Made by a program: the position numbers and the translations under genes
Part shown: one piece after another, positions 39,501 to 52,093 of the stretch
Layout: every line of letters starts with the position of its first letter
Position numbering within the stretch: position 1 is the stretch's first letter
The notes under the pieces: generated by a model
The model's database searches: none
Told to the model about the DNA's origin: nothing
What the model saw: only the letters and a program-made list of their open reading frames with translations
Assembly: GCA_022750295.1 (NCBI GenBank)
Contig: JAKIVZ010000013.1
Span: forward strand, 1-58,070
Direction: 5' to 3'
Origin: Candidatus Lutacidiplasma silvani
GTDB lineage: Archaea; Thermoplasmatota; Thermoplasmata; Lutacidiplasmatales; UBA184
Length of the DNA: 58,070 bases

Positions 39501-40640
39501 ATGTACCTCCCGCGGCGTTCCAAATCGGGCATGGTCGACTGGGACCTCGTGGAACGCCGCCGCTCCAAGGGCTGGGACTGGGAGCGGATCGCGGAGGACC
39601 CCAAAGTCGGGTTCCAGGCCGACGAGGCCGCGGGGGACCCCGGGCGGGCGCTCCGGGCGCTGTACTACCAGCGGAAGTCGAAGACCAAGCGGCGGTCGTC
39701 GTCCGACTCGCAGGCCGACGCCGATGCCGCCGACCCCGACAAGCGTTGGACCCTCGAGCGGGTGGCCGCCATCCTCGCCCCGCTGTTTGCGATCTGGTTC
39801 GTGGTCGCGCTCATCGTCCCTTCCCCCGTCGGAACGTTCCTCCCGGCGATCCCGTGGCTTGTGATCCTGCTCCTCCTCTCGGTCGGCCTCCTCGCGTTCG
39901 CCCTCCTCCGCTCGGCGAGCCGCTGGAACACGGCGATCCGCAACAGCCTGATTGCCGGCGTCGTCCTCGGTCTGGTCTTCTCCGGGGCGTTCGGAGTCGC
40001 GGCGCTCGTTAGCGGGTGCCCGACCCTGTCGCCCTCGACCTCGGGCGAGCCGAGTTCGTTCGTGAAGGCGTCCGACCCCGTCTGGAGCCAGAACGGCGCC
40101 TCGGTGTTCTTCTTCTACGGGTCGGCGGCGTGCCCGTACTGCTCGGCGTCGAGCTGGGCGATGATGGTCGCGCTCGAGGCGTTCGGTACGTTATCGAATA
40201 CGTACTTCGACCGTTCGAACCCGTCCGACGTCTACCCGAACACGCCGGAAGTGGTCCTCGCCAACGCGATCCTGCAGAGCAAGTACGTCAGCCTCCAGGT
40301 CGCCGAGTCGACCGACGACAACGAGATCCTGGCGGCGTCGACGAACGGTTGCTACCAGTCGTCGTACGTGAGCACGTACGATTCGGTGGGGAGCATCCCC
40401 TTCGTGGTGGTGGGCGGGCAGTACCTCCACGTCGGCGCGATGGTCAATCCGGCCGACCTGGAAGGGCTCACCGCGGCCGACGTCCAGGGCCAGATCAACA
40501 ACCAGTCCGGGGCGGCGTGGAACGCGATCAGCCCGACCGCGTACCTCCTCGAGGCGTTCCTGGTGAAAACCGACGGCGGCCAACCGGCGAGCGTCGCCAA
40601 TAATCCCTCGGTCGCCGCCTTGCTCGCCCAGATCCACTGA
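39501..40640 (+). CDS. DUF929-like membrane-anchored thioredoxin-fold protein
   Basis: A 379-residue protein. The first 60 residues are soluble and basic (DWDLVERRRSKGWDWERIAE). Two hydrophobic segments follow at about 88-107 and 112-133, and a third near 148-172. The C-terminal domain lies outside the membrane and carries a thioredoxin-like CPYC at about residues 211-214 (YGSAACPYCSASSWA), with a later cis-Pro region SIPFVVVGG. This fits DUF929 proteins of acidophilic archaea. Translation may begin at 39501, where an AAAGGAG abuts the ATG, or at ATG 39531. With the VKOR gene 15 nt downstream it likely forms a DsbA/DsbB-type oxidative folding pair. Confidence 0.85.
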   Translation: MYLPRRSKSGMVDWDLVERRRSKGWDWERIAEDPKVGFQADEAAGDPGRALRALYYQRKSKTKRRSSSDSQADADAADPDKRWTLERVAAILAPLFAIWFVVALIVPSPVGTFLPAIPWLVILLLLSVGLLAFALLRSASRWNTAIRNSLIAGVVLGLVFSGAFGVAALVSGCPTLSPSTSGEPSSFVKASDPVWSQNGASVFFFYGSAACPYCSASSWAMMVALEAFGTLSNTYFDRSNPSDVYPNTPEVVLANAILQSKYVSLQVAESTDDNEILAASTNGCYQSSYVSTYDSVGSIPFVVVGGQYLHVGAMVNPADLEGLTAADVQGQINNQSGAAWNAISPTAYLLEAFLVKTDGGQPASVANNPSVAALLAQIH

Positions 40641-40655: not shown

Positions 40656-41132
40656 ATGAAGGCGGAATCGGTCCACGCCGCGCTGCTGCTCCTCGTGATT
40701 GCCGGGCTCGGGCTCGCGACGTTCGCCGCGCTCGAAACGGTCATTCCCGCCCTCCAGAACAGTTGCTCGGTTTCCCAGTTCTTTTCCTGCCATGCGGTGG
40801 ACGCGAGCGGCCACACCACGATCCTCATGGTCCAGGATTGGGCCATCGGCATCGCCGGGTTCGTCGTCCTCCTAGGCCTCGAAATCCCGTTGTTTCGGAC
40901 CTGGCGGCGGGACCTTCTGACGGGGGTCCTCGCCGTTTCGGGGCTCGGGGTGGTCGTCGCCGTCTACTTGGGGTATGTCGAGCTCGACATCATCCACGCC
41001 CTCTGCCCGATCTGTTTCTCGACCTACGTCGTCGATGGCCTGGTGTTCCTCCTCTCCCTCTGGCTCTTCCTGGCGGGCCGGACCAAACCCGGGACGGCTC
41101 CCGGCGAGGAAGCTGCGTCCGCGACCGCCTGA
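40656..41132 (+). CDS. VKOR-family disulfide-generating membrane protein
   Basis: A 158-residue four-helix protein of the vitamin K epoxide reductase family, which reoxidises a thioredoxin-like partner with quinone as acceptor. Four cysteines are visible: C37 and C45 in the loop (SCSVSQFFSC) and C117-P-I-C120 in the active helix. The loop serine and the spacing fit microbial VKOR homologues. It is the immediate downstream partner of the CPYC protein, giving a complete electron relay from extracytoplasmic substrates to quinone. Confidence 0.92.
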   Translation: MKAESVHAALLLLVIAGLGLATFAALETVIPALQNSCSVSQFFSCHAVDASGHTTILMVQDWAIGIAGFVVLLGLEIPLFRTWRRDLLTGVLAVSGLGVVVAVYLGYVELDIIHALCPICFSTYVVDGLVFLLSLWLFLAGRTKPGTAPGEEAASATA

Positions 41133-42067: not shown

Positions 42068-42286
42068 ATGGTAGACCCGTACGCGACGCTCGCCGCTGGC
42101 ATCGCCATCGCCGGAGGACTTATCGGAACGGGGATGGCCCAGTCCGGGATCGGCGCCGCCGGAATGGGGATCATCGCCGAGAAGCCGGAGAAGTTCGGGA
42201 ACGTCCTGTTCTTCTTCGTCATTCCCGAAACCCTCTGGATCATCGGGTTCGTCCTGGGGATCGTCCTCATCCTCGGCGTCATCTAG
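42068..42286 (+). CDS. atpK: A-type ATP synthase proteolipid subunit K (c)
   Basis: Rotor-ring subunit of the membrane domain, 72 residues with two membrane helices. The first helix is glycine-rich (GIAIAGGLIGTGMAQSGIGA), and the second carries the ion-binding glutamate E54 in VIPETLWII. A single hairpin with one carboxylate implies one ion per subunit. No Na+-site signature (Q and second E pattern) is evident, which favours proton coupling, although this is not decisive. First gene of the plus-strand K-E-C operon. Confidence 0.95.
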   Translation: MVDPYATLAAGIAIAGGLIGTGMAQSGIGAAGMGIIAEKPEKFGNVLFFFVIPETLWIIGFVLGIVLILGVI

Positions 42287-42309
42287 GCGGCGTCGCCGGC
42301 CCCCGTACC

Positions 42310-42864
42310 ATGAGCCTGGACCGCCTCGTCGAGGAAATCCGCCAGCGCGCCGAGGCCGACCTGCGCGCGCAGGCGACCCAGCAGGCGGCCGACGAGGCCG
42401 CGGTCGTGGCCGACCGGGACGCCCGCGTCCAGGCGGTCGGCGAGCAGACCCGGCGCGCCGCCGAGCTCGAGATCGCCCGGGAGCGGGCCCAGAAGCTCGC
42501 GAGCGCGAAGCTCCAGTCCCGCAAGCTTGTCTACGAGGCCCAGGAGTCCCGGATGGCGACGGCGCTCGGGGAGACCCAGAAGCTCCTCTCCGACTACACC
42601 GACTCCGACGAGTACCCGAAGGTCGTCAAGCGGATGGTCGCGTACGCGACCGATGTCCTCGGCAAGTCGACGAAGGTGATGGGCCGCTCGGAGGACGCCG
42701 CCCTCCTGAAGAAGGTCGCCGGCGCCGGGTTCGACCCGACGCCGCAGTCCATCCTCGGGGGGATCGTCGCCGAGAGCGCGAACGGCTCCCGCCGGCTGAA
42801 CCTCTCGTTCGACGAGCTCCTGCGGTTGCGCGAGGACCAGGTCCGCCAGCTGCTCACCGCGTAG
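42310..42864 (+). CDS. atpE: A-type ATP synthase subunit E
   Basis: Peripheral stalk subunit, 184 residues. The N-terminal 100 residues are a long charged coiled coil; the C-terminal globular part includes LGGIVAESANGSRRLNLSFD, the typical end of E subunits (GG-x-V near a region with N/T-F). It would pair with subunit H, encoded on the opposite strand 3.2 kb away. Confidence 0.93.
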   Translation: MSLDRLVEEIRQRAEADLRAQATQQAADEAAVVADRDARVQAVGEQTRRAAELEIARERAQKLASAKLQSRKLVYEAQESRMATALGETQKLLSDYTDSDEYPKVVKRMVAYATDVLGKSTKVMGRSEDAALLKKVAGAGFDPTPQSILGGIVAESANGSRRLNLSFDELLRLREDQVRQLLTA

Positions 42865-42877
42865 GGAGCGAGGCGAG

Positions 42878-43954
42878 GTGGCCGGCTCTCCGTACGCCAG
42901 CGCGCTCGGCCGTCTGAAATCGTACCAGCCGACGCTCCTGCCGAAGGAGGCGTACGGCCCGCTCGTCGCGGCGAAGGACCTGGTCGAGGTCTCGAAGCTC
43001 CTCGAGGCGACCCCGTACGGCCCCGAGATCGCCCAATCGGCCGCGAGCTACCACGGAGCGCCGCTCTTGGAGCTCGCCGTCAACCACGTCCTCGTCGTCC
43101 GGAACCGGCTCGCCTACGAGGCGACCCCGTTCGCGGGGCGCGCGCTCGTCGGCGCCTACCTGCGCCGCTGGGACCTCCAGAACATCGGGATCATCCTCTC
43201 GGCGAAGTCGCAGGGCCGCCCGGTCGCGGAGACCGAGACGGCGCTCGTCTCGAGCCGCGACATCCCGGCCGGTCTCTTCGCGGGCACGATGACGCTCGAC
43301 GACTTCCGGCTCCTCCTCCAGCAGCCGAACGTCGACGCGATCGCCCAAGGGCTCGTGAAGTTCGGGTACGGCGGCGTCCTCCTCCCCCGGATGGAGGCGT
43401 ACAACCGGACCCACGACATCTTCCCGCTCCTCTCCGCCCTCGACCGGTTCTACTACGAGGACCTCCTGAGCTCGGCCCGGTTCTACCAGGGCGACGAGTG
43501 GGTCGTCCGGCTCCTCATCCAGAGCGAGATCGACGTCCGGAACGCCGTCCTCCTCCTGAAGGGAAAGGACGCCGGGCTCCCGGTCGAGGCGGTCCAGGAC
43601 CGGTTCCTCGACGGAGGCGCGATGCTGCGCGCCACGGTCCCCGAGCTCTATGGGGGCCGGTCGGTCGCCGAGGTCGTGGGCGCGCTCGAGCCGAGGTTCC
43701 CCGCGCTCCCCGAGGGGAACGACCTCTACCAGGCCGGCCGGAGCCTCGCCGGGTACGAGGCGGCGCTCGTCCGGGAGCGGTCGGTTCGGGAGTTGAAGCG
43801 GCTCCGCGCCTACCCGCTCAGCGTCGCGATCATCTTCGGGTTCCTGCTCCTCACCGAGCTCGAGCGCTCCGACCTCCGCCGGATCATCTACGGGAAGCTG
43901 TACGGGGTCCCGCCCGCCGACATCGAGCGGGACCTGATCGTCCCGCGGCTCTGA
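42878..43954 (+). CDS. atpC: A-type ATP synthase subunit C
   Basis: Central-stalk socket between the F/D rotor and the K ring, 358 residues. Pattern typical for subunit C/d: an all-helical protein with YASALGRLKSYQPTLLPKEAY, YLRRWDLQNIGIILSAKSQG, and the C-terminal NDLYQAGRSLAGYEAALVRER. GTG start preceded by a GAGGCGAGG purine tract. It ends 25 bp from the convergent stop of subunit I. Confidence 0.93.
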   Translation: MAGSPYASALGRLKSYQPTLLPKEAYGPLVAAKDLVEVSKLLEATPYGPEIAQSAASYHGAPLLELAVNHVLVVRNRLAYEATPFAGRALVGAYLRRWDLQNIGIILSAKSQGRPVAETETALVSSRDIPAGLFAGTMTLDDFRLLLQQPNVDAIAQGLVKFGYGGVLLPRMEAYNRTHDIFPLLSALDRFYYEDLLSSARFYQGDEWVVRLLIQSEIDVRNAVLLLKGKDAGLPVEAVQDRFLDGGAMLRATVPELYGGRSVAEVVGALEPRFPALPEGNDLYQAGRSLAGYEAALVRERSVRELKRLRAYPLSVAIIFGFLLLTELERSDLRRIIYGKLYGVPPADIERDLIVPRL

Positions 43955-43979
43955 GCCCGACGGGCCGGGTCGCCGGTCC

Positions 43980-46013
43980 CTACGGGGCCGGCGGAGGGGC
44001 CGGGTAGAGCGGCGCGGTGTACACCCGCTTCGTCTTCAGCGGGTGGAACTCCTTCCCGTTCCCCTCGTAGAACTTCGAGAAGTACTCGACGAAGATCAGC
44101 CGCGCCCCTTGGATCCCGGGCTCGAAGACGCCGAGGACGAGGTTGAACACCTGGCCGACGACCAGGATGACCAGCCCGAGGATCACGAAGAGGACCGCCT
44201 TCAGGGCGACCGACGCCGACCCGCTCGCGATCATTCCGGCCCCGCCGACGATGAGCCCGGAGTGGCCGTTCGGCCCGAGGGTGACCGTGTTGATCACGGT
44301 CGCGAGGATGATCGAGGCGAGGAGGATCCCGATGAGCCGCGTGTAGGAGAGGACGTGGCTCAGCATCTCCATCACGCCCATGAGCCCGTTCTGGGCCCCT
44401 TCCCCGTACGCCACGAGGATCGCCCCCGCGACGAGCAGGGTGAGGGGTCCGAAGAACGACAGCGTGGTGGGGCCCCCGAGGGTTTTCGAGAGGAGGCCGT
44501 AGCCGAACACCGAGAGTCCGACCGTCGCGACGATCCCGCCGACCTTCGCGATCGCGTGGCGGATCCGGTGGTGGAAGTACTCCTTCAGGGCGCCAAGGAA
44601 GAAGCCGAAGACGACCATCCCGATGCCGATGAGCCCGGCGACCTTCAGGTAGGTCCCGACGTGATGCAACGGGTCGACGGGAGAGTTGTACCCGGGGATG
44701 ACCTGCGCCCCGAAGAACGAGTTGAACAGGAGCCCCAGGCCGATGGCAATGAGGCAACCGGGGACGAGCGCGAACGCGAGCGAGCGCATCCCGTTGGGGC
44801 TCACGATGCTCGTCAGGAACTTTTTGAGCCCGTTCGGCAGGTGCTGCCGTCCGGGGAACCCGCCGATCATCCACAGGCAGATCCCGAGGATGACGAGCCC
44901 GTACCCCCAGTCGGCGAGCATCAGACCATAGAAGATCGGGAAGACGAACGCGAACACCCAGGTCGGGTCGAACTCGGTCGCCTGGGGGAGGGAATAGAAC
45001 CGGACGAGGAACTCGAACCGCCGGATCCCGTGCGGGTTCTCGATGTACGTCGGCGGTTCCTCGTGGGTCGGGATCGGGTAGATCTCGGCCCGGTCGTGGA
45101 CGGCGGCGAGGATGGTGGTGCGGAGGGCCGCGATGTCCCGGTTCGGCACCCACCCCTGGAGGACGAACCCGCGGTCGCTCGAACCGAGCCGGCTGTACGT
45201 GTCGAACTTGCGGTTCTCGATCTCGAGCGCCTCGGCGAGCGCCGCGAGGCGGGGATACCACTCGTTGGAAATCGCCTGGAGCCGACCCGCGATCTCGCCC
45301 CGGCGCCGGTCGATCGCCGCGACGCGGGCCGTCAATCGAGGGAGTTCCTCGGCGGCCGTCCCGGAGACCCCGCTCGGCACTCCGTAGAGCTGGATCCGGT
45401 GGACGGCCGCGAGCCGGGTCACCGACTCGGAGTCGGCCAGCGGTACGGCGAACAGGAACCGGACCCGGCCGTCCCCGGCCGGCCGGAGCTCGATCGGGAG
45501 GTTGCGAACGGCGGGGAGTTGGGCCTTCCATTCGCCGACGTCGTCGGCGTCCCCCTCGCCGAACAGCGCGACCCCGTTCCGGGCCCGCAGTTCGTCGTAG
45601 CGCCCGGTGAAGTGGGCGAACTGCTGGAGGAGGGCGACCGTCTGCTCGAGCCCCTTCCGCTCGGTGATGAGCTGGTCGTCCTCGCGCTTCAGCTTCCCGA
45701 CCTCGTCGTCGATCGGGACCGTCTCGGTCGCGCGGAGGATCTGGTCGAGACCCGAGAACGCGATCGGGGACGGCGGCGCCCCGCCGGACTTCGGGAGCGC
45801 GGCGAGAAGCCCGCGGAACCGGACGAGACGGTCGGCGACCTCCCGCTGGCGCTCGTTCATCCGCCCGGGGCCGAGCTGGGCGAGCGACTCCTTGTCGACG
45901 GGTTCGACCTGGATCGTCCCGAGGTCGTGAAGGACGGAGAGGACCGTGTCCTTGTCGTCGTTCAGGCCGACGATCGCGACCTTCGTGAACGGGAGCGGTC
46001 GCAGGAACGGCAC
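43980..46013 (-). CDS. atpI: A-type ATP synthase subunit I (a)
   Basis: Stator membrane subunit that forms the ion half-channels, 677 residues. The N-terminal 340 residues are soluble with long helices (HERQ-type coiled coil, EVGKLKREDDQLITERKGLE). From about 345 the membrane part has seven to eight helices (VFAFVFPIFYGLMLADWGYG, SHVLSYTRLIGILLA). The conserved Arg of the R-L-I segment in the penultimate helix region, required for ion translocation, is present (YTRLIGI). Last gene of the minus-strand operon. Confidence 0.96.
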   Translation of the reverse strand: MPFLRPLPFTKVAIVGLNDDKDTVLSVLHDLGTIQVEPVDKESLAQLGPGRMNERQREVADRLVRFRGLLAALPKSGGAPPSPIAFSGLDQILRATETVPIDDEVGKLKREDDQLITERKGLEQTVALLQQFAHFTGRYDELRARNGVALFGEGDADDVGEWKAQLPAVRNLPIELRPAGDGRVRFLFAVPLADSESVTRLAAVHRIQLYGVPSGVSGTAAEELPRLTARVAAIDRRRGEIAGRLQAISNEWYPRLAALAEALEIENRKFDTYSRLGSSDRGFVLQGWVPNRDIAALRTTILAAVHDRAEIYPIPTHEEPPTYIENPHGIRRFEFLVRFYSLPQATEFDPTWVFAFVFPIFYGLMLADWGYGLVILGICLWMIGGFPGRQHLPNGLKKFLTSIVSPNGMRSLAFALVPGCLIAIGLGLLFNSFFGAQVIPGYNSPVDPLHHVGTYLKVAGLIGIGMVVFGFFLGALKEYFHHRIRHAIAKVGGIVATVGLSVFGYGLLSKTLGGPTTLSFFGPLTLLVAGAILVAYGEGAQNGLMGVMEMLSHVLSYTRLIGILLASIILATVINTVTLGPNGHSGLIVGGAGMIASGSASVALKAVLFVILGLVILVVGQVFNLVLGVFEPGIQGARLIFVEYFSKFYEGNGKEFHPLKTKRVYTAPLYPAPPPAP

Positions 46014-46027
46014 GCCAACGCTCCCGG

Positions 46028-46390
46028 TCAGTCCGAACGGAACTGGCCCACGACGGCGTCGATCAGCTTCGGCTTGAGCGCGGCGACGGCGACCTGCGAG
46101 CCGCTCGCGACCTTCGCCGCCTCGGTCTCGCCGGCCTTGACGAGCGAGGCGACCTCGTTCGTGAGCTCGGCCCGGGCGGCCTCGATCGCGGCGGCCGCTT
46201 TCCGCTCCGCCTCGGCCTTCGCCACGCGGAACGCCTCGTTGGCCTCGGCGCGGACCGTCTTCAGCCGCTCCGCCCCCGACGCTTCGGCGGCCTTCCGCTT
46301 CGCCTCCATCTCGTCCTCGGTCGCCTTCAGGCGGCGGAGCGCCTCGATCGATTCGCCGGCGATGGGCCCCGGATTCGGTGCGTCGGACAT
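46028..46390 (-). CDS. atpH: A-type ATP synthase subunit H
   Basis: Peripheral stalk coiled-coil partner of subunit E, 120 residues. Nearly the whole sequence is Ala/Glu/Lys/Arg-rich helix without Pro after the first dozen residues. The start has a GGAGTG Shine-Dalgarno-like element located in the last codons of the upstream 43-codon gene, so its translation probably depends on that gene. Confidence 0.88.
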   Translation of the reverse strand: MSDAPNPGPIAGESIEALRRLKATEDEMEAKRKAAEASGAERLKTVRAEANEAFRVAKAEAERKAAAAIEAARAELTNEVASLVKAGETEAAKVASGSQVAVAALKPKLIDAVVGQFRSD

Positions 46391-46392
46391 CG

Positions 46393-46524
46393 TTACACTC
46401 CTTTCACGTAGGTCAGAACCAGGTAGAGGCCGACGAAGAGGACCAGCATCCGGACGGCGAGCGACAGCACCTGGACCTGGCGGAACCGGACGACCGCCGG
46501 GTTCGCGTTACGCAGCGGCGACAT
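46393..46524 (-). CDS. 43-residue single-helix membrane protein in the ATPase operon
   Basis: Short gene between atpD and atpH. Its product is MSPLRNANPAVVRFRQVQVL followed by SLAVRMLVLFVGLYLVLTYV and KGV. The first 19 residues are basic; residues 20-40 form one hydrophobic helix. It overlaps the end of atpD by 17 bp, has its own GGAGG about 10 nt before the ATG, and its final codons contain the ribosome-binding site of atpH, so it is embedded in the translation chain of the operon. No known ATP synthase subunit of this kind was recognised; it could be an accessory membrane subunit or assembly factor. Confidence 0.72.
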   Translation of the reverse strand: MSPLRNANPAVVRFRQVQVLSLAVRMLVLFVGLYLVLTYVKGV

Positions 46525-47158
46525 TGGCGGCCGCCTCCGCGGCTTCCATCTTCCGCTTGACGGTCTTCAGCATGCTGAAGGCGTCCCGCTCGAGCTCGTC
46601 GAATTGGAACTTGATGTACCGGACCGTCGCCTGGAGCCGGGGGATCAGGACGTTCTCGATCGCGCTCGCGCGGCGCTTGGTCTTCTCGATCTCCCGGAGC
46701 AGCCGACGGAGCGCGTTCTCCTTCTCGGCGATGTCGAGGACGACCTGGTAGATCCCCTGGAATTGGCCGATCGATTCCATGATCGACGTCGGCAGGTCGA
46801 GGAGCGAGGCGCTCTGCACGGCGTCGTAGCCGCCCGCGTCGACGCGGGGGGTCTTGACGCCCATCACGTTCTTCGTGGTGACCGAGACCGGGAGGACGTC
46901 GGGGAGGAGCATCGAGATCGACTCGAGGCGGGTCGGCCCTTCCATCATGTCGGCCTGCCGGATCGACGCGTACCCGCGCGCGATCTTCGTCTGGAGGTCG
47001 CCGCGGAGGGCGAGCGCCTGCTGGGAGAGCTTGAAGAACTCGGCGATGAGCGCGGACCGCTTCAGCTTCAGGAGGTTGAGCCCCTTCTTCGCGAGGACGA
47101 TCCGCCGGCGGGTCCGGAGCAGTTCGAGGCGGGTCGGGCGGATGTTCTCCTGGGCCAT
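46508..47158 (-). CDS. atpD: A-type ATP synthase subunit D
   Basis: Central rotor shaft subunit, 216 residues. The family N-terminus RPTRLELLRTRRRIVLAKKG and the C-terminal helix RRASAIENVLIPRLQATVRY with IKFQFDELERDAFSMLKTVK are clear; these two helices form the antiparallel coiled coil inside the A3B3 ring. It follows atpB with a 26-bp gap and overlaps the 43-codon gene. Confidence 0.96.
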   Translation of the reverse strand: MAQENIRPTRLELLRTRRRIVLAKKGLNLLKLKRSALIAEFFKLSQQALALRGDLQTKIARGYASIRQADMMEGPTRLESISMLLPDVLPVSVTTKNVMGVKTPRVDAGGYDAVQSASLLDLPTSIMESIGQFQGIYQVVLDIAEKENALRRLLREIEKTKRRASAIENVLIPRLQATVRYIKFQFDELERDAFSMLKTVKRKMEAAEAAANVAAA

Positions 47159-47184
47159 GGCTCGGTCCTCCGGCTCCCAGTCGC

Positions 47185-48606
47185 CTACGCCGCCTTCTTG
47201 GTCCGGTACTTCGCGATGAACTCGGGTTTGATCCGCTTCAGTTCCGCCTCGGGAAGCTCGGAGAGGATGTCCCAGGCGATCGCGAGGCTGTCGTCGATCG
47301 AGCGGTCCTCGTCGGGCCGCTGGTTGACGAACTCGTTCTCGAACCGCTCGGCGATCCGGAGGTAGATCCGGTCGACAGCGCTCAGCGAGTCCTCGCCGAC
47401 GATCGCCGAGAGGGCGCGCTGGTCCTTCCCCGTCGCGTAGCTCGCGTAGAGCTGGTCGGCGACGCCGCGGTGGTCTTCCCGGGTCCGGCCCTTGCCGATC
47501 CCCTGGTTCATCAACCGCGAGAGCGAGGTGAGCACGTCAATCGGAGGGTAGACGCCCCGGCGCTGCAGGTCGCGGCTCGCGACGATCTGGCCCTCGGTGA
47601 TGTACCCGGTCAGGTCCGGGATCGGGTGGGTGATGTCGTCGGCGGGCATCGTCAGGATCGGGAGCTGGGTGATCGACCCCTTGCGGCCCTTGATCTTCCC
47701 CGCGCGCTCGTACAGCGTCGCCAGGTCGGTGTAGAGGTATCCCGGGTACCCACGGCGACCGGGAACCTCTTCCCGCGCGCTCGCGATCTCCCGAAGCGCC
47801 TCACAATAGTTCGTCATGTCGGTCATGACGACCAGGATGTGCATGTCCCGCTCGTAGGCGAGGAACTCGGCGGTGGTGAGCGCCATCCGCGGCGTGATGA
47901 CGCGTTCCATCGAGGGGTCGCTCGAGAGGTTCAGGAAGACGACGGTCCGTTCGAGGGCGCCGGTCGACTCGAACTCCTTCAGGAAGAAGTTCGCCTCCTC
48001 GCTCGTGATCCCCATCGCGGCGAAGACGACCGCGAAGCTCTCGGTCGAGTCGCGGAGCTTCGCCTGGCGGACGATCTGGGCGGCGAGCTGGTTGTGCGGA
48101 AGTCCGGCGCCGGAGAAGATCGGGAGCTTCTGACCCCGCACGAGCGTGTTCATCACGTCGATGTTCGACAGCCCCGTCTGGATGAACTCGCTCGGCTCTT
48201 CCCGGCTGTACGGGTTCATCGCGTTCCCGACGATCTCGAGTTTCTTGTCGGAAACGATCTTGGGGCCGCCGTCGCGCGGCTCACCGAGGCCGGTGAAGAC
48301 GCGGCCGAGCATCGCGTCGGAGACGGGGAGCTGGGCCACCTCACCGAGGAACTTGACGCTCGTCTCGTTGACGTTCATCCCCATCGTGGGGCCGAACACC
48401 TGGACGATCGCGAGCCCCTTCCGGGAGTCGAGGACCTGGCCCTGCCGACGGGTCCCGTCGGGGAGGCCGATCTCGACGATTTCGCCGTACGCGGCGTTGG
48501 CGACGTCCTGGACGAAGAGAAGTGGTCCGGAGATGCGGTCGATGGTCCGGTAGGCGACGGGGATCGTTGGAGCGGGAGCTTTCGCGGGCGCCTTGGTGCT
48601 CGCCAT
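47185..48606 (-). CDS. atpB: A-type ATP synthase subunit B
   Basis: Non-catalytic nucleotide-binding subunit, 473 residues. As usual for B it lacks a normal P-loop: the corresponding region reads [19 protein letters not shown]. Other conserved parts are [20 protein letters not shown], the [12 protein letters not shown] segment, and [18 protein letters not shown]. It lies 3 nt after the stop of atpA. Confidence 0.98.
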
Positions 48607-48609
48607 GGC

Positions 48610-51600
48610 CTACGCTCCCCCGGCGGTGGCCGCGACGGAACTGATCATCTCGGTCTCCATGGCGTCGAACTGCGCCTTCAGCTCGGCCTCCGGGATCCAT
48701 TTCATCCGACTGAGCTTCTGGCGGACGGGGAGTTTCTGGATGTCGGCCACGAGGGCGCCCTTTCCGATCGCATCCTGCTCGCGGTCACCGAAATTGAGGA
48801 TGGCGCGGAGCATCCGGTACTGCTTGCCGATCGACGTGTACGTGTCGACGTCGTCATACGCCGACTGCTGGAGGTAGTCCTCCCGCAGCATCCGGGCGAC
48901 GTCGAGGATTCCCTTTTCGCGTTCCGGAAGGGCGTCGACGCCGACGAGCTGGACAATCTCCTGGAGTTCCGACTCCTTCTGGAGCGTTTCGAGGGCTTTC
49001 TGGCGGAGTTGCACGAAGTCCCCCGCGAGCTCGGCCTTGTACCACGGCTCGAGGTCCCCGACGTAGAGCGAGTAGCTCTGCAGCCAGTTGATCGATGGGA
49101 AGTGGCGGCGCGACGCAAGGTTCGCGTCGAGCGCCCAGAAGACCCGAGCGACGCGAAGCGTGTTCTGGCTGACCGGTTCGGAGAAGTCCCCGCCCGGAGG
49201 GCTGACAGCGCCGACGACGGTGACGGATCCCGAGCGGCCCTCGGGGGAAATCGTGATGACCCGCCCGGCGCGCTCGTAGAATTCGGCGACGCGGCGACCG
49301 AGGTACGCCGGATATCCCTCTTCTCCGGGCATCTCCTCGAGTCGACCGGAGATTTCCCGCATCGCTTCGGCCCACCGGCTGGTCGAGTCGGCCATCAGGG
49401 CGACGTCGTACCCCATGTCGCGGTAGTACTCGGCGATGGTGATCCCCGTGTAGACGCTCGCCTCCCGGGCCGCGACGGGCATGTTTGAGGTGTTGGCGAT
49501 GAGGATCGTTCGTTCCATCAACGGTCGCTTGGTCTTCGGGTCCTGTAGGTTCGGGAACGTGGCGAGGACTTCCGTCATTTCGTTGCCGCGCTCGCCGCAG
49601 CCGACGTACACCACGACGTCCGAGTCGGCCCACTTCGCGAGCTGCTGTTGGGCCACGGTATTGTGTAGGAGGATCGCGCCGTGACCGCCGACAAAGTTCG
49701 CCCCGTACTCGGGCACGGCGACGTCGAACACGTCGTACGGTCCGTTGGTCTCGGCCGTGACATCGACGATTTCGTCGCAGTAGAGCGTCTCGAGAAGTTC
49801 CGCGAGTCGCACCGCGACCGGCTCCAGCGCTTCGAGGCTAGGGCCTCCTCCAACTTGGGGAGCCGCCATGAACGTTTGCAACGTCGAGGCTCCCATCCGT
49901 TCGCGATTTCCGATGTAGTTGTGGATCTCGATTCCGGCGTTCAGGAGGGTCGAGTACCGGAAGTGGGAGCCGTAGATTCGCCGAATCACCTCGGGGATGA
50001 TAGGGACCACGTCGACCGCGGAGTAGGTCGATCGTGAGGCCAGCGCGTAATCCGACAGTTTCGCCACCTTCGGCCAGCGAGTGTCGAGCGTAGCGGCGAG
50101 CCGCACGAGGTTCGGACGTCCTCGGACGTAGACCCGGTAGTAGGTCGTGCCATCAATTCGTCGGGAGGCCATCGTGGAAGTGACCCCGAATCGTGAGAGC
50201 GCGTAGACCAAGTCGAGGTGGAGCCCGCGGCTCGCGGTGCACAATTCGACGTCTCCTTTGCTAAATCCGCCGTCTCCGAGGTAGTATCCGAGGAGGAAAC
50301 CTCCGAGCACCGCGTTGCTGGAGGCCAGGACGACCGGCGGAATCCGCTTCTCGGCCGGGGCCCGACCCGTGCCTAGCTGGTCCAACGTCGCGACCAGCTG
50401 GACGCTGTGGACGAGCACGTTCGGAGTCTTGGTCGCTTGTCGCTCAATGTGCCCCTCGAGTCCGAAAAGGGTGCGGGTCAGGTCGAGGAATCGCGCCAGC
50501 ATCGCGGGTTCCTGGTTCGTGAACACGACCGTTCCCTTGCCGCGAACGTAGCCTTCGGAAACGAACAGGCCGAGCCACTCGCCAAATTCGGGAGTCGTTC
50601 GCTCGGGGAGCTGAATGTGGTGGCCGTGCCGCTGGAGTTTGGGAACGCGGACGCCGAGGGCCGGATTCCGACTGGGGCCCGGGAGGGCCCGTACCGAAGC
50701 GAGGTACTGCCCCGGTCGCAGGTTCTCGGCACGGATCGTCCGAAGATCGCCCGCAGGTCCGAACGTGAATAGGGGGTGGATGGGGGTGACGCGAACCGAA
50801 CGACCGCTACGAGTCCGGACGCGAATCAGAGTGTCGCTCTTTCCTTTGTAGAACGTTCGAGCTTCGCTGCGAACGATTCGGTTCTCGACCAGAGAGCGGA
50901 GCCCGATCGGTTGGTCGAGTTGGTACCATTCGTCCGCGCCATCGGTGGTTCGGACGCCGTCTCGCTGCGCGTGCTCGTAGAGCCGGTCCATCGTCGTGAG
51001 CGTTCCATCGTCCAGCTGGACCGGAGTGTCCCCCGCGACACACTTCCCCGACCCGAACGGCCCGGGAATGCACGCGGTTCCACCCTTGGCCACCGGGTAG
51101 AACGTATCGATTACCCGTTGACCCGTGATGAGCGGAATTCCGGGGGCCAGTTTTTGCTGGACGGGGCGCGGGATCCGGACGACCCACTTCTGACTGAGGA
51201 AGAGCGGCTGCTTGCCGGAGGCCGCGCGGATCGAACCGATCGACTCCCGGATGGTGAAGGTGCCGGCCTTGAGGTCGTCGAGCGTGCCGGAGACGCCCGG
51301 CGGGACCATGATCTTGTGGAGGATGAGCGGGGTCTCCTGGACCGTGCCCAGGATGGTCCCAGGGGTGACCTCGGAGCCGACCTTCGCCGTGGGGGTGAAC
51401 TCCCACTTCTTGGTCTCGTCGAGGGCGGGCGCGACGAAGCCACGCGTGATGAAGTCCCCGAGGTTCTGCTGCAGAACGTCGAGCGGACGCTGAACTCCGT
51501 CGTAGATGGACTTGAGAAGCCCCGGTCCGAGCTCGACGGAGAGCGCCTGGCCGGTCGTCTCGACCTTGTCGCCGGGCCGGATGCCGGTCGTGTCCTCGTA

Positions 51601-51747
51601 GACCTGGACGGTCGCGGTGTCGCCGACGAGCCGGATGATCTCGCCGACGAGCCCGAGGTCGCCGACGCGGACGACGTCGAACATCTTGGCGCCCGTGAGA
51701 CCTTCGGCGACGACGACCGGACCGGAGACCCGTGCAACTGTTCCCAT
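48610..51747 (-). CDS. atpA: A-type ATP synthase catalytic subunit A, intein-containing precursor
   Basis: Catalytic ATPase subunit, 1045 residues as encoded and 584 after intein removal. The N-extein (235 residues) begins MGTVARVSGPVVVAEGLTGA and ends in the P-loop GPFGSGK. The intein interrupts immediately before the P-loop threonine, so the unspliced protein cannot bind ATP normally. The C-extein resumes TVAQQQLAKWADSDVVVYVG with CGERGNEMTEVL (catalytic Glu region) and ends with the helical C-domain. ATG 51747 lies 7 nt after the F stop; the upstream in-frame ATG at 51771 overlaps atpF and adds only eight residues, so it was not used. Confidence 0.97.
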   Translation of the reverse strand: MGTVARVSGPVVVAEGLTGAKMFDVVRVGDLGLVGEIIRLVGDTATVQVYEDTTGIRPGDKVETTGQALSVELGPGLLKSIYDGVQRPLDVLQQNLGDFITRGFVAPALDETKKWEFTPTAKVGSEVTPGTILGTVQETPLILHKIMVPPGVSGTLDDLKAGTFTIRESIGSIRAASGKQPLFLSQKWVVRIPRPVQQKLAPGIPLITGQRVIDTFYPVAKGGTACIPGPFGSGKCVAGDTPVQLDDGTLTTMDRLYEHAQRDGVRTTDGADEWYQLDQPIGLRSLVENRIVRSEARTFYKGKSDTLIRVRTRSGRSVRVTPIHPLFTFGPAGDLRTIRAENLRPGQYLASVRALPGPSRNPALGVRVPKLQRHGHHIQLPERTTPEFGEWLGLFVSEGYVRGKGTVVFTNQEPAMLARFLDLTRTLFGLEGHIERQATKTPNVLVHSVQLVATLDQLGTGRAPAEKRIPPVVLASSNAVLGGFLLGYYLGDGGFSKGDVELCTASRGLHLDLVYALSRFGVTSTMASRRIDGTTYYRVYVRGRPNLVRLAATLDTRWPKVAKLSDYALASRSTYSAVDVVPIIPEVIRRIYGSHFRYSTLLNAGIEIHNYIGNRERMGASTLQTFMAAPQVGGGPSLEALEPVAVRLAELLETLYCDEIVDVTAETNGPYDVFDVAVPEYGANFVGGHGAILLHNTVAQQQLAKWADSDVVVYVGCGERGNEMTEVLATFPNLQDPKTKRPLMERTILIANTSNMPVAAREASVYTGITIAEYYRDMGYDVALMADSTSRWAEAMREISGRLEEMPGEEGYPAYLGRRVAEFYERAGRVITISPEGRSGSVTVVGAVSPPGGDFSEPVSQNTLRVARVFWALDANLASRRHFPSINWLQSYSLYVGDLEPWYKAELAGDFVQLRQKALETLQKESELQEIVQLVGVDALPEREKGILDVARMLREDYLQQSAYDDVDTYTSIGKQYRMLRAILNFGDREQDAIGKGALVADIQKLPVRQKLSRMKWIPEAELKAQFDAMETEMISSVAATAGGA
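49660..51042 (-). other. Intein (VMA P-loop site) with LAGLIDADG homing endonuclease
   Basis: 461 residues. It begins with Cys (precursor residue 236, CVAGDTPVQLDDGTLTTMDR) and ends with VGGHGAILLHN, the His-Asn pair needed for splicing; the +1 residue is Thr. Splicing block B is visible as TPIHPLFTF. Two endonuclease motifs are present, EWLGLFVSEGY and LLGYYLGDGG, with the acidic residues E and D in place, so the endonuclease may be active. The insertion site after GPFGSGK is the one used in other archaeal VMA inteins, including Thermoplasma and Pyrococcus. No strong base-composition difference from the extein is seen by eye. Confidence 0.95.
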
Positions 51748-51754
51748 CGATTCC

Positions 51755-52093
51755 TCACTTCGGCATCGCAAGCGTAACGCCGAGCACCCGTTTCGCGAGC
51801 GCTTCGACGCTCTCGACCTCGTATTCCCCGGTCGGGCCGGGGACGAAGACGACGAGCGGGGAGAGGGACGATTCGGCCGCGTTGCGCTGGCCGTCGGTGA
51901 GCGATTTCCGAACGGACTGGCTCGCCACGACGAGGCTGTGCCGGCCGTCGTTCATCGCTTTCTGGAACTCGTGGGACGCCGTTTCCGGGGTGACTTCCAC
52001 GACGTCCTTCATGCCGATGAGGCGGAACCCGATCGCGAGTTCGCGCTCGCCGAGGACGACGGTCCCACCGTCGCCCGGTGGCGCTTCCGGCAT
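51755..52093 (-). CDS. atpF: A-type ATP synthase subunit F
   Basis: Small regulatory rotor subunit, 112 residues, with a Rossmann-like fold. Typical pattern: VVLGERELAIGFRLIGMKDV near the N-terminus, the middle SLVVASQSVRKSL, and LSPLVVFVPGPTGEYEVESVEALAKRVLG. First gene of the minus-strand operon, with a TATA-like CTATTTAA centred 27 nt before its ATG. Confidence 0.92.
   Translation of the reverse strand: MPEAPPGDGGTVVLGERELAIGFRLIGMKDVVEVTPETASHEFQKAMNDGRHSLVVASQSVRKSLTDGQRNAAESSLSPLVVFVPGPTGEYEVESVEALAKRVLGVTLAMPK

Follow-up and report, generated by a model that had tools for sequence, protein, structure and literature searches.

The nearest described system to the gene reported here is AhaG of Methanosarcina. 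In those parts of the earlier literature that deal with it, AhaG is a 6.3 kDa protein with one very hydrophobic tryptic peptide and is absent from several archaea (PMC4350412). The same passages consider AhaG authentic because a matching band appeared after expression in E. coli, and state its participation in the ATPase as open (PMC4350412). They also describe subcomplexes from E. coli expressing ahaA-ahaG, which contained subunits A, B, C, D and F without G, and proteomic work in which AhaG was not recovered, an outcome ascribed to peptide size and hydrophobicity with AhaG not ruled out (PMC4350412). Part of a second source reports acid-mine archaeal genomes and T. acidophilum to be without AhaG (PMC3750248).

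The gene itself, here called X, is a 43-codon single-transmembrane (TM) open reading frame (ORF) adjoining atpD in the Candidatus Lutacidiplasma silvani window, by which we mean the whole stretch of 58,070 nucleotides that was analysed. Among the titles and abstract openings listed by searches of open-licence PMC papers, none described this ORF. A preliminary description of the locus had likened X to the tiny membrane subunits of the eukaryotic V-ATPase, and e, f and Vma21 are likewise very small membrane proteins of a rotary enzyme related to this one; subunit e and Vma21, however, have two TM helices, a feature that X, with one helix in its AlphaFold2 model, does not share. AhaG, encoded after ahaD, is nearer in position and size and replaces them as the closest comparison. 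Like AhaG, X is encoded directly after the D gene on the same strand, is small (43 aa), has one predicted hydrophobic helix (near the C-terminus in AhaG) and is missing from several archaea. The two differ in what follows, since X is succeeded by atpH-atpI, whereas ahaG presumably closes the Methanosarcina cluster, and in sequence, the AhaG consensus P-E-N-L-A-R-I-L-R-W-A-W-L-I-S-L-L-M-L-V-L-G contrasting with A-V-R-R-F...S-x-A-x-K in X.

Table 1. Position of X, its translation signals and adjoining ATP synthase genes in the window.
Feature	Position	Strand	Remarks
X, gene for a predicted 43-aa single-TM protein	46393..46524	-	ATG at 46524, TAA at 46395-46393
GGAGG Shine-Dalgarno of X, within the atpD 3' end	46534..46538	-	9 nt 5' of the X ATG
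atpD/X overlap	46508..46524	-	17 bp; atpD end = 46508
Last codons of X, AAA GGA GTG TAA, bearing the GGAG of the next gene	46393..46404	-	
atpD	46508..47158	-	PF01813, E 3.3e-48
putative atpH, 120 aa	46028..46390	-	weak NCBIfam subunit H match, E 0.079; position before atpI
atpI (subunit a)	43980..46013	-	PF01496, E 3.5e-21
atpB	47185..48606	-	closest solved chain 2c61, A-type ATP synthase subunit B, E 1.8e-188

The minus strand of the window carries, in order, atpF, atpA (with an intein), atpB, atpD, X, a putative atpH and atpI. The coordinates first given for a 43-codon ORF with one predicted helix, its own GGAGG and a 17-bp overlap with atpD are exact, and the ribosome site of the next gene does lie in the last codons of X, as GGAG inside AAA GGA GTG followed by TAA; a 2 bp gap separates the X stop from the next ATG (46390). 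The name AtpH rests on position, because the 120-aa protein had no match in a Pfam scan and its match to subunit H is weak. We take the solved chain 2c61 to be subunit B from M. mazei. Rotary ATPases have been studied more thoroughly than most enzymes, yet the solved chains matched by the D and I proteins of the window are V- or V/A-type entries, presumably bacterial or eukaryotic, and we recognised no whole archaeal enzyme among them. The X-bearing genes form one of two convergent ATP synthase clusters, K-E-C at 42068-43954 (+) and F-A-B-D-X-H-I at 43980-52093 (-), which meet at about 43954-43980. The intein of atpA (48610-51771, -) shows Intein_splicing and LAGLIDADG_3 matches between the barrel-sandwich and nucleotide-binding domains.

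Open frames as long as X are common in GC-rich DNA, and relatives were therefore used as the test. The 43-aa query found partners in a search of 106 genomes of the order, the stronger ones mostly between atpD and atpH/atpI (tblastn). Loci were then anchored on atpD, which was found in 94 of the 106 genomes. The window's family supplied 92 distinct ones (de-duplicated by sequence, with genomes G057, G078 and G105 possibly counted twice), and 86 of these had a one-TM ORF at the X slot. Calls were limited to ORFs of 26-85 residues that contain a hydrophobic stretch and start between -40 and +75 relative to the atpD stop, so their TM character is partly the result of selection. Loci without a recovered atpD C-terminus were excluded before this and the two later denominators (90 and 77) were counted, which kept 272 of 285 loci. 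Starts lay between -23 and +28 of the atpD stop in the 86 ORFs, with -17 the commonest offset (32/86) and -14 found in 20, and the length was 36-63 codons in 84. The two short calls among the 86 (L038 and L054) were dropped from the window-family profiles and from the dN/dS and Shine-Dalgarno analyses, and a locus from outside the family (L154) was also dropped from the latter two.

The slot was empty in six loci of the family. At one (L090) the contig stops 195 bp after atpD, and at the other five, one in genome G085 (L093) and four in genus g2 (L109, L110, L111, L114), atpD is followed directly by an atpH-like frame. Since g2 and G085 join D straight to H without the gene, X is dispensable. 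A relocated copy was sought in g2 (five genomes), G085 and family f3 and not found, the best match (E 0.0075) lying inside a 372-aa frame. An extra AtpI helix compensating for the loss was considered and rejected: in a comparison that leaves out L369 and L372, AtpI shows seven hydrophobic segments where X is present (the window, L370, L371, L373 and L374; six in L375) and seven where it is absent (L366-L368), so no compensation is visible.

A family profile, itself built from atpD-adjacent loci, was also searched over the 106 genomes without regard to position. It gave 84 matches at E<=1e-4 in 79 genomes, of which 81 lay immediately 3' of atpD in the same orientation. Of the remaining three, two were at contig starts (G027 C120 and G044 C139), and one was a weak match in G000 (E 7.3e-5) within a 311-aa frame. 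The profile matched nothing in 27 of the 106 genomes, 11 of which were also without an atpD match. The X gene is thus linked to ATPase genes and nearly absent elsewhere, with one weak match away from them among 84. In family f3 of the same order (L116 and L117; G002 and G003), a frame for a 240-aa multi-helix membrane protein stands after atpD in place of the small ORF.

The idea that X is a chance ORF in GC-rich DNA draws on how cheap open frames are there: 76 of the 84 homologous loci keep one particular antisense frame open, and 22 a second sense frame, so the open frame of X is by itself little proof. At none of the 84 loci is any of the other five frames TM-like as well as open, in a comparison where the X frame alone had been selected as TM-like. 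In 21 disjoint close pairs, chosen by an atpD amino-acid-changing difference of at most 0.05 and scored with the atpD-overlapping codons excluded, dN/dS of X was 0.43 (p=2e-13); a looser cut gave 0.45 (28 pairs), and the value for X is far above that of atpD in the same 21 pairs (0.06). Two other pairing schemes were set aside. The first, by low ORF dS, gave 1.35 from a biased choice of pairs; the second, by atpD synonymous difference, gave 0.77 (p=3e-4, 41 pairs) and is saturated in this GC-rich group, and elsewhere this second scheme gave 0.24 in the Methanosarcinales set (22 pairs) and 0.45 in other loci of the class (9 pairs). GGAGG occurs within 20 nt upstream of the start in 79 of 84 loci, against 3% of 20-nt windows inside atpD. 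Conservation in 86 of 92 loci, purifying selection, the conserved Shine-Dalgarno sequence and the 81 of 84 position-blind matches at atpD together refute the chance reading, to which we give practically no credence. X is a real, conserved coding gene under purifying selection, and the two points on which the preliminary description had staked its proposal beforehand, a conserved ORF at this position in relatives and unequal synonymous and non-synonymous rates (here a ratio below 1), both went in its favour.

A further possibility is that the gene is translated merely as a spacer, its reading bringing ribosomes to the atpH start and the peptide being irrelevant. The end of X does serve the next gene in part. 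Gly-Gly falls in the last six residues at 47 loci, 31 of which encode it as GGAGGN, so this conserved-looking C-terminal pair probably reflects the ribosome site of the next gene rather than a protein motif. A complete GGAGG falls within the final 18 nt of X plus 8 nt at 37 of 84 loci, and four bases of the motif at another 26, such a four-base match alone being present in 27% of background windows. A spacer does not, however, call for a dN/dS of 0.43 or for a Lys or Arg kept at position 25 in 72 of 73 aligned sequences, and AhaG-type ORFs follow atpD where no atpH-like gene is seen next; we regard this reading as disfavoured and very improbable. Antisense to atpI-atpH-X-atpD in the window runs a 902-codon open frame (44043-46751, +), which is probably a by-product of GC-rich codon usage, since antisense frames are often open at such loci.

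A small ORF at this slot extends well past the window's family. In the class sample atpD was found in 275 of 300 genomes, and 90 loci were read outside the family, three of them from its order; 72 of the 90 carry a small one-TM ORF, though that of L154 looks spurious. Such an ORF is present in at least one locus of 25 of the 32 sampled families, f1 included, the seven without it being f3, f6, f17, f18, f20, f24 and f26. An atpH-like gene comes after the small ORF (the order D-X-H) in f1, f11, f19, f27 and f31, and in many other families the small ORF has no such gene next to it; the slot ORF is present in D-X-H families of the class to which T. acidophilum belongs. An atpI after atpH was seen only in f1, the stretches read elsewhere not having been checked for atpI. 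The placement between rotor and peripheral-stalk genes, on which the first proposal leaned, is accordingly not constant: one-TM ORFs follow atpD with or without an atpH-like gene next. Frames of about 310-470 residues with a hydrophobic stretch were also seen after atpD, either behind the small ORF (L169, L205) or without one (L168, L187).

Methanosarcina-type loci were collected with the 2c61 subunit B sequence (99% identical to Methanosarcina records) as the query, and the 80 best of 237 loci, most of them with Methanosarcinales in the title, were read. Among these, 53 of the 77 loci with a readable atpD have a small one-TM ORF after it. We take the Methanosarcina ORF directly after ahaD to be AhaG, a name given here on the known gene order and matching size, with no annotation used; the ORFs so named have 46-62 residues in most loci, with one call of 80. 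The slot ORF was absent from all 15 readable loci titled Methanoperedens or Methanoperedenaceae and also from two whole genomes so titled. Across the Methanosarcina phylum atpD was found in 96 of 100 genomes, and the 70 atpD loci read there gave 25 candidate ORFs, of which that in L300 is apparently spurious.

Many of the slot ORFs of the window's own class are of the AhaG type. The profile of the AhaG-like class ORFs (set A5) matches AhaG with an hhalign probability of 98.8% (E 1.3e-16), and an AhaG-type profile searched without regard to position over the 300 class genomes had matches in 104. Of the 94 matches whose place relative to atpD is known, 93 adjoin it, the exception being in G159; ten more could not be checked in this way. 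Family f2, in the same order as the window, has an AhaG-type ORF at the slot (G001, E 2.0e-6). Two AhaG-type matches lie inside 162-codon frames (G159:C6:22832-22960 and G281:C235:3489-3617), and the one in G159, away from the listed atpD, is possibly a relocated or fused copy.

Whether X belongs with these ORFs was approached through profile comparison. With near-identical sequences removed, 73 of 84 rows were kept in A2, 20 of 53 in A4 and 30 of 31 in A5; L154, L115, L148, L149, L171 and L172 were dropped from the AhaG-like group, and 15 f9/f15-type loci formed a separate set B. With the D-X-H type of other families (A3: f11, f19, f27 and f31) the window type has a match probability of 91% (E 1.1e-6). 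These A3 ORFs share the D-X-H order with X; they differ from it in having Asn most commonly where X has Lys or Arg, a longer N-terminus as a rule and a different C-terminus. Compared directly, the window type reaches 3.8% with AhaG (E 0.011, not significant) and 1.5% with A5, ORFs that share with X the slot, the single TM helix and the class, yet sit at 98.8% with AhaG. A direct equation of X with AhaG is therefore unproven. Against a null of column permutations that preserve hydrophobicity, the score of the window type was reached by 0 of 60 for AhaG (narrowly, 13.76 vs 13.7), 0 of 60 for set A, 10 of 60 for set B and 0 of 80 for a broad AhaG set; for the D-X-H type of other families the corresponding numbers were 22, 9 and 13 of 60 (AhaG, A and B).

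A small set of AhaG-like ORFs from the Methanosarcina phylum (L299, L304, L305, L311 and L323) bridges the two. Its members match the AhaG profile at E 2e-12 to 8e-5 in a 12-sequence search, and the combined window and D-X-H profile matches the bridging group at 47% (E 1.9e-4), with a score of 19.05 against a permuted maximum of 11.6 (0/80); the corresponding values are 4.5% for the window type alone and 29% for the D-X-H type alone (0/80 each). When the window type is aligned with the bridging group, an Arg of the latter stands opposite the conserved Lys/Arg of X. In a scoring of single AhaG-type peptides, the window profile placed 19 of 109 above the 99th percentile of a shuffled set and the D-X-H profile 2 of 109; the reverse direction gave 2/104 and 0/104.

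These comparisons suggest that X is distantly homologous to AhaG, which we consider likely but unproven; the link of X itself to AhaG is suggestive only, and X is possibly a divergent form. The competing view, that the slot was filled independently by unrelated small membrane proteins and X is not homologous to AhaG, we rate as the lesser possibility, though one of some weight. It gains from the direct hhalign probabilities of 1.5-4%, from the permutations that reach the scores of the window profile against set B (10/60) and from those that reach the D-X-H scores (22, 9 and 13 of 60 for AhaG, A and B). It has more difficulty with the absence of any permutation reaching the window-type score for AhaG (narrowly), set A, the broad AhaG set and the bridging group, with a bridging group that matches both AhaG and the window type, and with the occurrence of both ORF types at the same slot within one order.

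AlphaFold2, run on the 73-sequence alignment, models X as one helix spanning residues 9-41 (mean pLDDT 80.5, pTM 0.43). Besides the Lys or Arg at position 25, the aligned sequences have R13 or K13 in 65 of 73, F14 in 63 and S21 in 50. The N-terminal side is more positive than the C-terminal side in 81 of 84 X loci, a bias that is weaker in AhaG (36/53). By the positive-inside rule the basic side of a membrane protein faces the cytoplasm, and from the basic N-terminal side we infer a cytoplasmic N-terminus for X. The X protein of the window matched no Pfam or NCBIfam family up to E 1, and among the 73 aligned members two matched DUF3742 in Pfam (best E 0.0042). Up to E 10 no solved chain matched the X profile, and matches of the AhaG-like profile in the PDB stayed at chance level (best E 0.27); Pfam and NCBIfam scans caught nothing among 20 AhaG members.

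We suggest that X is probably a translated single-pass membrane protein in the AhaG position, and most likely a small subunit with an accessory or assembly role in the Ao membrane sector. It would be made from the same message as AtpD, from its own Shine-Dalgarno sequence and a start inside atpD, as a protein whose N-terminal segment is basic and cytoplasmic and whose single hydrophobic helix leads to a very short C-terminus outside, the near-invariant Lys/Arg lying at the start of the helix or inside it. A role in the Ao sector fits the strict linkage to atpD, the single helix, the basic N-terminus and the occasional clean absence. Within that sector X may belong to the rotor side (the c-ring and the foot of the central stalk) rather than to the peripheral stalk, since ORFs of this kind are found at atpD both with and without a following atpH. 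The accessory or assembly subunit first proposed thus remains the best reading: the conserved gene at atpD with a dN/dS of 0.43 is what stood, and association with the enzyme is the part that we infer.

One half of this explanation might also be taken alone, X helping to insert or assemble the c-ring or subunit a and being absent from the finished enzyme. Vma21 and bacterial AtpI have such assembly roles, and the small size, the absence from several lineages and the operon position would suit one. In the passages on AhaG cited above, that protein is missing from proteomics and from the subunits of purified subcomplexes, which would also agree with a pure assembly factor, but those passages ascribe its non-recovery to peptide size and hydrophobicity and do not rule AhaG out (PMC4350412). 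We think it rather unlikely that X acts in assembly only.

Beyond the accessory or assembly subunit proposed for X itself, we put forward tentatively, as slightly less than an even prospect, that most Thermoplasmata and several other archaeal groups have an overlooked one-helix subunit of the A-type ATP synthase encoded after atpD, of which AhaG would be one branch and X another, with the Lys/Arg of X contacting the proton path or the lumen of the c-ring. The spread of the slot ORFs and AhaG-type matches over the class makes the question of whether AhaG is a true subunit directly testable. Next to the atpK-E-C cluster of the window, a gene for a VKOR-family protein (40656-41132, +) lies beside one for a DUF929 protein (39501-40640, +), and the two are perhaps a disulfide-forming pair.
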